Assembly (NCBI RefSeq): GCF_002285435.1
Contig: NZ_NSBT01000037.1
Coordinates: 496,001 to 560,000, forward strand
Reading direction: 5' to 3'
Source: Actibacterium ureilyticum
GTDB taxonomy: Bacteria; Pseudomonadota; Alphaproteobacteria; Rhodobacterales; Rhodobacteraceae
Length of the DNA: 64,000 bases
This document shows positions 52,256-56,324 of this stretch, in pieces. The notes beneath the pieces are model-generated. The model did not search any database, was not told the DNA's origin, and saw nothing but the letters and a program-made list of their open reading frames with translations. The translations under genes were made by a program, and so were the position numbers. Positions within the stretch are counted from its first letter, which is position 1, and each line of letters opens with the position of its first letter.

Positions 52256-54250
52256 TCACTGATCCAGGAAGCTGCGCAGCTTGCGCGAGCGGCTGGGGTG
52301 TTTGAGTTTCCGCAGCGCCTTGGCTTCGATCTGGCGGATACGTTCGCGGGTCACGCTGAACTGCTGGCCGACTTCCTCCAGCGTATGGTCGGTGTTCATG
52401 CCGATGCCGAAGCGCATCCTCAGTACCCGTTCCTCGCGCGGGGTCAGGCTGGCCAGAACGCGGGTCGTGGTGTCCTTCAGGTTCTCCTGAATGGCCGAAT
52501 CCAGCGGCAGGACGGCGTTCTTGTCCTCGATGAAATCGCCGAGCTGGCTGTCTTCTTCGTCGCCGATCGGGGTTTCCAGCGAAATCGGTTCCTTGGCGAT
52601 CTTCATCACCTTGCGGACCTTTTCCAGCGGCATCTGCAGCTTTTCGGCCAGTTCCTCGGGCGTGGGTTCGCGGCCGATCTCGTGCAGCATCTGGCGGCCG
52701 GTGCGGACCAGCTTGTTGATCGTCTCGATCATGTGGACCGGGATACGGATCGTGCGGGCCTGGTCGGCAATCGACCGGGTGATGGCCTGACGAATCCACC
52801 AGGTCGCATAGGTCGAGAATTTATAGCCGCGGCGGTATTCGAATTTATCGACCGCCTTCATCAGGCCAATGTTGCCTTCCTGGATCAGGTCCAGGAATTG
52901 CAGGCCGCGATTGGTGTATTTCTTGGCGATCGAGATCACCAGGCGCAGGTTGGCCTCGACCATTTCCTTCTTGGCCTGGCGCGCCTCTTTCTCGCCCTTC
53001 TGGACCTGCTGGACGATGCGGCGGAATTCGCTGATGTCGACGCCGACATATTGGCCGACGCGGGCCATCTCGCCGCGCAGTTCCTCGACCTTGCTGCCCG
53101 AGCGTTCGCAGAACGCCTGCCAGCCGCGACCGGCTTTCTCGTTCATCCGCTCCATCCAGGCGGGGTCCAGTTCGGACCCGCGATAGGCGTCGATGAATTC
53201 GCGGCGGTTGATGCGGGCTTGGTCGGCCAGTTTCACCATCGACCCGTCGATCTGCATGATCTTGCGGTTGATGCCGTAAAGCTGGTCGATCAGCGCCTCG
53301 ATCCGGTTGTTGTGCAGGTGCAGCTCGTTCACCAGCAGCACGATCTCGGACCGCAGCTTCTGATACGCGGCCTCTTCCTTGACCGAGAAACTGTTATCCT
53401 CGTTCAGGGTGGCCGACATGCGCATGTCCTGCATGTCCGACAGCTTGGCATAGTCGCGCGCGATCAGGTCGAGCGTTTCCAGAACCTGCGGCTTCAGCGC
53501 GGCTTCCATCGCCGCAAGCGACATGTTGGCCTGTTCGTCGTCATCCTCGTCGTCATCGTCGCTGGCAATCGGGTTGCCGTCGGCGTCCAGCTCGGGCTGG
53601 TCGTCCTTTTTCTGCGCGGTGGCAGAGGCATCGACATTCAGATTGCCGACAACGGGTTCGCTTTCTTCGCCATCGTCGTCCATCGACTGGCCGAACGTGG
53701 TTTCCAGGTCGATCACGTCGCGCAGCAGGATGTCTTCGTTCAGAAGCTCGTCGCGCCAGATCGTGATCGCCTGAAAGGTCAGCGGGCTTTCGCAGAGCCC
53801 CAGGATCATGGTGTTGCGCCCGGCCTCGATCCGCTTGGCGATGGCGATCTCGCCCTCGCGGCTCAGCAGTTCGACCGATCCCATCTCGCGCAGGTACATG
53901 CGCACCGGGTCATCGGTGCGGTCCAGCTTCTCGGTCTCGGTTTGGGCGACGGCCACCTCGCGCGAGGTCGAGGTTTCGACAACCTCGGTCGAGCCCTTGG
54001 AATCGTCGTCCTCGGCCTCTTCCTCCTCGATGATGTTGATGCCCATCTCGGACAGCATCGACATCACATCCTCGATCTGCTCGGACGACACCTGATCGGG
54101 CGGCAGAACCTGGTTCAGCTGATCATAGGTGATATAGCCACGCTCGCGCGCCTCGGCGATCATCTTCTTGACCGCCGCCTGGCTCATATCAAGCGAATGC
54201 TCCTGGTCCTGGTCGTCCTGTTTGCGATCATCGGTGTCTTTTGCAGCCAT
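52256..54250 (-). CDS. rpoD: RNA polymerase primary sigma factor RpoD
   Basis: A 664-residue sigma-70. Region 1.1 is at the N-terminus and a large acidic non-conserved insert lies around residues 175-225. Region 2 contains [20 protein letters not shown] and [20 protein letters not shown], region 3 [19 protein letters not shown], and region 4.2 [20 protein letters not shown]. It is the housekeeping sigma factor. The gene lies downstream of dnaG in the common macromolecular-synthesis order. Its upstream region carries an unusual nest of GANTC palindromes. Confidence 0.97.
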
Positions 54251-54268
54251 GCCATGCTCCTTGCAGGG

Positions 54269-54318
54269 GCGCTGATTCGCTTTGTGATGTGATTCGAATC
54301 AATAACCCGAATCAGCGC
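54269..54318. promoter_or_regulatory. Nested palindromes with four GANTC sites upstream of rpoD
   Basis: A perfect 11-bp inverted repeat GCGCTGATTCG (54269-54279)/CGAATCAGCGC (54308-54318) encloses the 12-bp palindrome TGATTCGAATCA (54290-54301). Together they give four GANTC methylation sites (at 54274, 54291, 54296 and 54309) within 40 bp. The element begins 18 bp before the rpoD ATG, in its leader or promoter. Confidence 0.75.
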
Positions 54319-54368
54319 GATGCACACCCGTTTAGCCTTAACTTTGTTATTACCCCGTCACCGGAACG

Positions 54369-56324
54369 TCACGATGCATCCGGTTCCTTTGTTCCATACC
54401 CGATCTGGGCCAGCAGGCTTTCGAACGCCCCACGTTCGTCGCGGCTGATCCGCGCGCCATTCGGCCCGATATCGTATTCACCCCGATCCTCGTTGTCGGA
54501 TTTGCCCGCCCGGTTGCGTGCCTCGGCCGCCTGGCCCAGCCGCCAGGTCAGGCCTTCGTCGGCCAGCCCGTCCATATCCTGAAGCGCGTCTTCGATTTCC
54601 TGTGCCGCGCCGCGCGTCGCTGTCAGCTTGGCCACTTCCTCGGCCAGACACAGCGCGGCTTTCTCGGCATCCTGCGGGTTGGCGACGGATGGACAAATCT
54701 GGACATGGCGCAGTGCGAACAGGTTTTCAAGGGGCGCGGGCCCGATGGTGCCGGAAATCGCGGCCCGCAGCGCGGCGGGGTCGGTTTCATCGGCATGGGT
54801 CAGCAGCGCGCCCTGCAACCGGCGATGATCGTCGCTGGTGCAATCCAGCCGTTCCAGCGCATCCAGCGCCCCGTGCAACAGGCCGGGATGGGTGATCAGC
54901 GTGGCCAGGATCACCGCCTCGTGCAGGTAATCCTCGAACCCCTGCCCGGCCGATACCAGCGCCGAGGATTTGGTGGCCGACAGCGCAGGCTGCGGCGCTT
55001 TGCGGCCGCGCCAGGGTTTGCGCGCGCCCCCTTCGCGCCGGGGATTGAAGAGCTGCCAGCGCAGGTTCTTGATCTCGTCCCCGTAATGCCGCTTGATCGA
55101 CGGGTCCTTGATCCGGCCGATGACCGCGCGCAGGTCCTTGTCCAGCGCGGCCTTGCGTTCGGGGCTGTCGAAGGATTTGCCCTCGGTCTCGCGCTGCCAC
55201 AGCAGCTGAACCATCGGCTGGGCCTGCTCCAGCAGCTTGTCCATCGCGCCGGCGCCGCCGGTGCGGATCACATCGTCCGGGTCCTGCCCCTGCGGCATCA
55301 GCGCAAAGCGCAGGCTGTGCCCGGCTTCCAAAAGCGGCAGCGCCAGGTCGATCACCCGCAGCGCGGCGCGTATCCCCGCCGCATCGCCATCCAGCGCAAT
55401 GACCGGCTCGGGGTCGATCCGCCAGGCCAGCCGCAGCTGATCCTCGGTGATCGCGGTGCCCAGCGGCGCGACCGCCGCGCCGAACCCCGCATCAGACAGC
55501 GCGATCACGTCCATATACCCCTCGGCCAGGATCAGCGTCTTGCCCTTGCCCGCGGCCTCGCGCGCGGGACCGTGGTTGTAAAGCGTATGGCCCTTGTCGA
55601 ACAAAAGCGTCTCGGGCGAGTTCAGGTATTTCGCCTTGTCCTCGGGGTCCATCGCGCGGCCGCCAAAAGCGATCGCCCGGCCCCGCGCATCACGGATCGG
55701 GAACATGATCCGGTCGCGGAACGTGTCATAGGGCTTGCCGCCCTTGCTGCTGGGCTTGGCCAGCCCCGCGTCCAGGATCATGTCCTCGGCCACGCCCTTG
55801 CCGCGCAGATGGTCCCAAAGCCCCTGCCAGCCATCGGGGGCAAAGCCGATTTCCCAGCGGTCCAGCCGCGCGCCGGTCATGCCCCGCCCGGCCAGATAGT
55901 CGCGCGCCGCCGCGCCCCCGGCGGTCTTCAGTTGCAGGCGGAAGAACTGCACCGCCTGTTCCATCACCGCGATCAGCTCGCTGCGGCGGTCGGCGCGTTC
56001 CTGGGCCTTGGGGTCGCGGGCGGGCATCTGCATGCCAGCCTCGGTCGCCAGGATCTCGACCGCCTCCATGAAGCTCACATTCTCGGTCTCGCGCACAAAG
56101 GAAATCGCGTCACCCTTGGCGTGGCACCCGAAGCAATAGTAATAGCCCTTGCGGTCGTCGACGTGGAAACTGGCGGTCTTTTCCTGATGGAACGGGCACG
56201 GCGCCCACATGTCGCCCTTGCCCTGGTTCGATTTGCGCGGATCCCACATGACCTTGCGCCCGACAACCTGGCTCAGGCTCAGGCGGGTGCGCAGTTCATC
56301 CAAGAATCCGGGGGGCAGGCTCAT
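54369..56324 (-). CDS. dnaG: DNA primase DnaG
   Basis: A 651-residue primase. The zinc-binding domain has Cys43, His46, Cys64 and Cys67 (PCPFHQEKTASFHVD, YYYCFGCHAKGDA). The TOPRIM core follows: LILAEGYMDVIALSDAG and VIALDGDAAGIRAALRV. The C-terminal helicase-binding part ends SLLAQIGYGTKEPDAS. It makes RNA primers at replication forks. It lies 118 bp upstream of rpoD on the same strand, so the two may be partly co-transcribed. Confidence 0.97.
   Translation of the reverse strand: MSLPPGFLDELRTRLSLSQVVGRKVMWDPRKSNQGKGDMWAPCPFHQEKTASFHVDDRKGYYYCFGCHAKGDAISFVRETENVSFMEAVEILATEAGMQMPARDPKAQERADRRSELIAVMEQAVQFFRLQLKTAGGAAARDYLAGRGMTGARLDRWEIGFAPDGWQGLWDHLRGKGVAEDMILDAGLAKPSSKGGKPYDTFRDRIMFPIRDARGRAIAFGGRAMDPEDKAKYLNSPETLLFDKGHTLYNHGPAREAAGKGKTLILAEGYMDVIALSDAGFGAAVAPLGTAITEDQLRLAWRIDPEPVIALDGDAAGIRAALRVIDLALPLLEAGHSLRFALMPQGQDPDDVIRTGGAGAMDKLLEQAQPMVQLLWQRETEGKSFDSPERKAALDKDLRAVIGRIKDPSIKRHYGDEIKNLRWQLFNPRREGGARKPWRGRKAPQPALSATKSSALVSAGQGFEDYLHEAVILATLITHPGLLHGALDALERLDCTSDDHRRLQGALLTHADETDPAALRAAISGTIGPAPLENLFALRHVQICPSVANPQDAEKAALCLAEEVAKLTATRGAAQEIEDALQDMDGLADEGLTWRLGQAAEARNRAGKSDNEDRGEYDIGPNGARISRDERGAFESLLAQIGYGTKEPDAS

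Follow-up and report, generated by a model that had tools for sequence, protein, structure and literature searches.

A conserved array of GANTC sites before rpoD in Rhodobacteraceae suggests GcrA/CcrM-dependent control of the primary sigma factor gene

Why does Actibacterium ureilyticum, in a genome that is poor in the pentamer GANTC, carry four copies of it directly before the gene of its primary sigma factor? In the window, i.e. the whole stretch of 64,000 nucleotides analysed, the order on the minus strand is dnaG, a gap of 118 bp (54251-54368) and rpoD, the dnaG stop codon ending at 54369 and the rpoD ATG lying at 54250. The four GANTC sites of this gap start at 54274, 54291, 54296 and 54309, and every one of them reads TGATTCG or CGAATCA and fits the extended form YGAKTCK. 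Two inverted-repeat arms, GCGCTGATTCG at 54269-54279 and CGAATCAGCGC at 54308-54318, are 100% complementary, lie 28 nt apart and enclose a 12-bp palindrome, TGATTCGAATCA, at 54290-54301. The description given in an earlier note on this DNA, four GANTC in 40 bp with an 11-bp repeat around a 12-bp palindrome before rpoD, is confirmed by the site positions, by the complementary arms and by the profile matches of both genes. The features are the following:

54369..56324, minus strand: dnaG, DNA primase, the upstream gene (profile match)
54299..54326, minus strand: putative weak sigma-70 promoter, TGTGCA (54326-54321), 16-bp spacer, TATTGA (54304-54299), from column conservation
54309..54313, minus strand: GATTC site 1, 13 bp before the core site (tandem spacing)
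54296..54300, minus strand: GATTC core site, overlapping the putative -10
54291..54295, minus strand: GAATC site abutting the core, forming a palindrome together with it
54274..54278, minus strand: GAATC site 22 bp downstream of the core and 24 bp upstream of the rpoD start codon
54269..54318, no strand: nested inverted-repeat element, 11-bp arms around the 12-bp palindrome
52256..54250, minus strand: rpoD, primary sigma factor, the downstream gene (profile match)

The rarity of the site was measured on the window and on C30, the contig of 1,287,567 bp that bears rpoD and represents 31% of the 4.145-Mb genome. The window contains 54 GANTC for 255 expected from shuffles, a strong avoidance, and C30 contains 943 for 4182 expected from base composition. 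TGATTCG is present in 16 copies in C30, four of these inside 42 bp of the rpoD gap, and GATTCGAATC has a single location in the whole 4.145-Mb genome. Stretches of 60 bp with at least three GANTC number four in C30, and the one with at least four lies in the rpoD gap. Intergenic DNA of C30 is 2.6 times denser in GANTC (1.64 vs 0.63 per kb), an enrichment that has been published for alphaproteobacteria (PMC3973325). With a crude gene model, the rpoD gap ranks joint fifth by GANTC count (4) among the 832 intergenic gaps of C30; the gaps above it carry 18, 8, 6 and 5 GANTC in lengths of 784-9263 bp, and none of the other seven gaps with at least four is as short. This ranking does not bear out the concern that such clusters might simply be common in intergenic DNA, and the earlier judgement that the density is unlikely by chance is supported by the uniqueness of the 60-bp stretch in C30 and by the avoidance of GANTC in window and contig.

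Small GANTC clusters are nevertheless not unique to rpoD genome-wide, because the own ccrM gene, outside C30, is preceded by a 39-bp stretch with three GANTC, at 55-93 bp from the start codon (L124:423-461), one of the three being of YGAKTCK type. The ten proteins encoded beside some of the other TGATTCG sites of C30 belong to assorted genes. An inverted TGATTCG pair 16 bp apart lies between converging genes of the crude gene model (C30:1072413-1072435, in L192), where it may serve as a terminator hairpin or as a site of another kind. A CGAATCA at L161:6785 is situated within a DivIC-like septum gene, 16 bp from its predicted start, and about 60 bp before an oppositely directed AidB-like gene.

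The upstream regions of rpoD were then compared within the family. An rpoD match was obtained in 97 of 100 family genomes, and 95 upstream regions were counted besides that of A. ureilyticum, leaving out G069, whose match is cut by a contig end, and G021, G033 and G059, which gave no rpoD match; G040 was counted without its second sigma match (L122, 0 sites). Within 120 bp before rpoD, these 95 regions exhibit no GANTC in four cases, one in two, two in eight, three in 33, four in 38 and five to seven in 10. Sites of the YGAKTCK type number at least two in 88/95 and at least three in 78/95 over the same distance, and the GANTC density amounts to 28 per kb before rpoD vs 1.1 per kb elsewhere in the same loci. 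Relatives with four or five GANTC include Rhodovulum euryhalinum, Litoreibacter ascidiaceicola and Gemmobacter caeni. In the same way, the loci L002-L015 (14 of 21) present 3-5 GANTC within 120 bp in ten cases, two in L011 and L012, and none in L013 and L015. Additionally, a class-wide sample of 66 genomes besides our own was examined over the 150 bp before rpoD, with start codons set by script. The single genome of the same family in this sample has four YGAKTCK sites. Of the 65 that belong to other alphaproteobacterial families, 59 have no such site within the 150 bp, six have one and none has two, while three have two GANTC of any kind. The rpoD GANTC array is, within the sample taken, particular to Rhodobacteraceae.

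It is the sites, with two preferred spacings, that the relatives keep, and not the palindrome. The comparison of relatives proposed in the earlier note therefore upholds the cluster of sites, at least two YGAKTCK in 88/95 regions, and does not uphold the inverted repeat, which is missing in them; the nested symmetry can no longer be taken as the key feature. As a functional unit the nested palindrome was rejected, since among the upstream regions compared a similar one is found only in L074 and, partly, in L098. L074 has a GAATC abutting the core at this position too, as does L098, whose core is GAGTC.

The form of the sites is as constrained as their number. TGATTCG accounts for 221/322 of the GANTC sites before rpoD (69%) vs 5% of 172 elsewhere in the loci, and among the 16 palindromic pentamer types of the upstream regions GANTC occurs 323 times, the next type 86. 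Every single-base variant of TGATTCG was counted against a first-order expectation in the 95 upstream regions. The variants CGATTCG (25x), TGAGTCG (7x), TGATTCT (7x), TGATTCC (3x) and GGATTCG (2.4x) are enriched, AGATTCG stands at 1.6x, and the 12 variants that destroy GANTC remain at background level (0-1.9x). Apart from TGATTCC and GGATTCG, the enriched variants match the published GcrA motif, the GcrA-activated methylated sites being described by TGATTCG and more broadly by YGAKTCK (PMC7987155). YGAKTCK is not a universal mark of GcrA, because the GcrA-activated promoters of Brevundimonas, in the same paper, showed no extended motif (PMC7987155).

Among the site pairs, 42 are opposed at a distance of 21 bp and 21 are in tandem at 13 bp; these are the commonest arrangements, and the A. 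ureilyticum window carries the second. With a tolerance of 1 bp, the opposed pair occurs in 55/95 regions, the tandem pair (12-14 bp) in 26/95 and either of them in 73/95. In contrast, 300 random placements, made over 100 bp for real regions of 140 bp, gave either pair in 11 regions on average and in 20 at most. Immediately ahead of the first site there is another conserved stretch, GGGTAAACGGGTG (e.g. in L036, L038 and L041), and TAAACGGG is present in 22/95 upstream regions.

The proteins that could read such an array are encoded in the genome. A. ureilyticum has its own GcrA, with a Pfam score of 163.7 bits vs a cut-off of 26.9, and its own CcrM-like methylase with N6_N4_Mtase and RAMA domains, both below the NCBIfam equivalog cut-offs (168.5 vs 280 bits for GcrA and 638.7 vs 830 for CcrM). 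GcrA was found in 100/100 family genomes, and the RAMA-domain methylase in 95/100 of them and in 385/395 genomes that are at least 97% complete. The reading of GANTC as the CcrM motif, made in the earlier note together with its emphasis on the palindrome, gains from the family-wide conservation, from a substitution pattern matching the GcrA/CcrM motif and from the presence of gcrA and ccrM; the emphasis on the palindrome is what falls away.

As to the position of the sites, column conservation points to a weak promoter in the window, TGTGCA-16-TATTGA (54326-54299); sites would then fall within its spacer, on its -10 element and beyond it on the downstream side. The core site is preceded by TAWT in most aligned rows (66/96 sequences, selected for fitting the core, so that the core columns of the logo are conserved by construction). 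A consensus promoter scan of the rpoD upstream region found no promoter, a result that would be in keeping with dependence on a cofactor.

From these features of the DNA, we consider with a probability of about 0.7 that the dnaG-rpoD gap holds a GcrA/CcrM-dependent rpoD promoter typical of Rhodobacteraceae. CcrM would methylate the GANTC sites before rpoD, of which most family members have three or four, and, once methylated, the YGAKTCK-type sites overlapping and flanking the weak -10 and -35 elements would be bound by GcrA. Bound GcrA would help the sigma-70 RNA polymerase to initiate at rpoD, and the promoter would sense the change from full to half methylation as the replication fork passes. 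Methylation in vivo, GcrA binding, the promoter position and cell-cycle timing at rpoD are what we infer here. GcrA is a cofactor of sigma-70; since it works through sigma-70, the sigma-70 gene would be placed under its own cofactor, in a feedback loop. The alternatives offered by the earlier note, a protein operator or a methylation-controlled promoter, coincide if GcrA is the reader. The Caulobacter GcrA associates with RNA polymerase and binds GANTC when it is methylated (PMC3667746); activation at 40-60 minutes has been described for those cell-cycle start sites of this bacterium that have GANTC between -35 and -10 (PMC4287350).

Instead, GcrA or another regulator with TGATTCG as its recognition sequence could read the array as an operator that needs no methylation, the CcrM motif being incidental. 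We hold this to be unlikely; the genomes that lack CcrM bear on it. Eleven genomes have no RAMA match or a weak one; ten of them, in six genera, are without a whole-CcrM match at E 1e-20, and the other, G249, has a contig-split CcrM. In the rpoD loci of the ten CcrM-less genomes (L136-L146) the observed/expected ratio of GANTC is 0.69-1.68, compared to 0.61 pooled over 29 loci (L026-L054), where the highest single locus reaches 1.09. Where CcrM is missing, the avoidance of GANTC tends to be lost, and it is therefore tied to the enzyme. The sixth CcrM-less genus, g60, was left out as its rpoD start could not be set, and in the five others the cluster is kept in two and lost in three. Three and four YGAKTCK sites precede rpoD in g169 (L136 and L137), in the usual arrangement, and three are kept in g108 (L140); g30 has none in L115/L138 and one in L139, g176 none in L143 and one in L144, and g15 (L118/L141) one GANTC and no YGAKTCK site. 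An RpoD tree, used only here and built on 133 columns and 102 rows with several long branches, no outgroup and support below 80 for 56/99 inner branches, places L136/L137 near L034 and the A. ureilyticum genome.

An array kept, with GANTC avoidance gone, in two of five measurable CcrM-less genera, and in g169 in the usual arrangement, speaks for reading without methylation, as does GcrA, which is kept in all three CcrM-less genomes searched. The losses in three of the five genera speak against it, and so do the match of the sites to the published methyl-dependent motif (PMC7987155) and the 12 GANTC-destroying substitutions, which stay at background while the N and the flanks vary. The invariant GANTC core is not decisive, because an ordinary regulator could have an invariant core too. 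The mixed result means either that methylation is dispensable in some lineages or that the loss of sites lags behind.

At most one YGAKTCK site precedes rpoD in G014 and G029, the two CcrM-less genomes among the 95 family regions; in 88 of the remaining 93 there are at least two, one of these 88 being G096, a genome 77% complete without a RAMA match, and five that bear CcrM have fewer than two (G042, G008, G017, G083 and G004). The tie of the rpoD array to CcrM is a tendency. In G014, G029 and G059, all at least 97% complete, no CcrM was found and GcrA is present; GcrA can therefore outlive CcrM.

The GcrA/CcrM-dependent promoter that we prefer could also work as a brake, with GcrA on the fully methylated rpoD promoter holding the polymerase back until the passage of the fork relieves it. 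On the fully methylated ctrA P1, GcrA covers -35 to +7, and interference with the polymerase has been raised by the authors (PMC3667746); the rpoD sites likewise lie over and beyond the putative -10. The extended motif has been described for activation (PMC7987155), which counts against a brake. We regard the brake as improbable, a minor share that is contained in the 0.7 and not additional to it, and, if control by GcrA is right, its effect on rpoD is, with fair probability, activation rather than repression.

A role of the repeats in RNA, as a dnaG terminator or as a hairpin of the rpoD leader, could draw on the perfect 11-bp inverted repeat within the gap, and is very improbable: the inverted repeat is not conserved, and the site orientations vary among the relatives. 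An intrinsic terminator or a known RNA element was rejected, as there is no stem-loop with a T run, no match to an Rfam family and only a weak fold (z-score of -1.5, with 16/200 shuffles equally good). Chance, or the general GANTC richness of intergenic DNA noted above for C30, is the least credible explanation of all in view of the 28 GANTC per kb before rpoD across 95 genomes, the specific flanks, the preferred spacings and the absence of the array from the other families sampled.

Sites of other regulators were considered as well. A CtrA site was rejected, its motif form TTAA-N7-TTAA being found in 0/95 rpoD upstream regions, and so was a DnaA site, with its motif form TTATNCACA in 0/95. 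LexA operators, GTTC-N7-GTTC, are similar in letters, are conserved near promoters and can overlap GANTC (PMC7987155), but this form is present in 1/95 rpoD upstream regions, and a LexA operator was rejected too.

The closest known systems are the GcrA/CcrM promoters of Caulobacter crescentus (ctrA P1, mipZ, podJ and others), with the same extended GANTC, TGATTCG or YGAKTCK, and with gcrA and ccrM in the genome. In contrast to these, the putative target here is rpoD, usually with three or four sites at preferred spacings. Of the 96 cell-cycle start sites of Caulobacter that had GANTC within 50 bp upstream, 11 had two or more (PMC4287350). The binding of CtrA to the rpoD promoter of B. abortus (PMC2877005) is likewise a case of an alphaproteobacterial cell-cycle regulator at rpoD, but the regulator proposed here is GcrA and not CtrA, whose motif is missing from the 95 regions. 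In the excerpts of the GcrA, CcrM and GANTC literature covered, no report of a GANTC array at rpoD was found (PMC7987155, PMC2877005, PMC4287350, PMC8116508, PMC3973325, PMC3667746, PMC9836097, PMC6473078). The kind of promoter is already known; rpoD as its proposed target and the array of sites are new.

We put forward, tentatively and with more doubt than belief, a wider proposal, in which, in Rhodobacteraceae, the circuit of GcrA and CcrM has come to act on the gene of the primary sigma factor, GcrA's partner, the phased array reports the passage of the fork and couples transcription capacity to replication in a closed loop, and the CcrM-less genera that keep the array have a GcrA that reads the unmethylated motif.

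In two comparative studies, the few GANTC at ctrA have led to the suggestion that control coupled to methylation may not be of major importance in Rhodobacterales, or that replication and ctrA are uncoupled there (PMC8116508, PMC9836097). The rpoD array argues otherwise, at rpoD, than the ctrA-based view of a minor role of methylation. Rhodobacteraceae keep on their primary sigma factor gene a GANTC array that is, in A. ureilyticum, the densest GANTC cluster of contig C30. If GcrA acts at rpoD, the primary sigma factor would be controlled by its own cofactor, and the role of GcrA and CcrM in a large environmental family would become testable at one promoter. The array suggests that CcrM and GcrA control the amount of the main sigma factor that is made.
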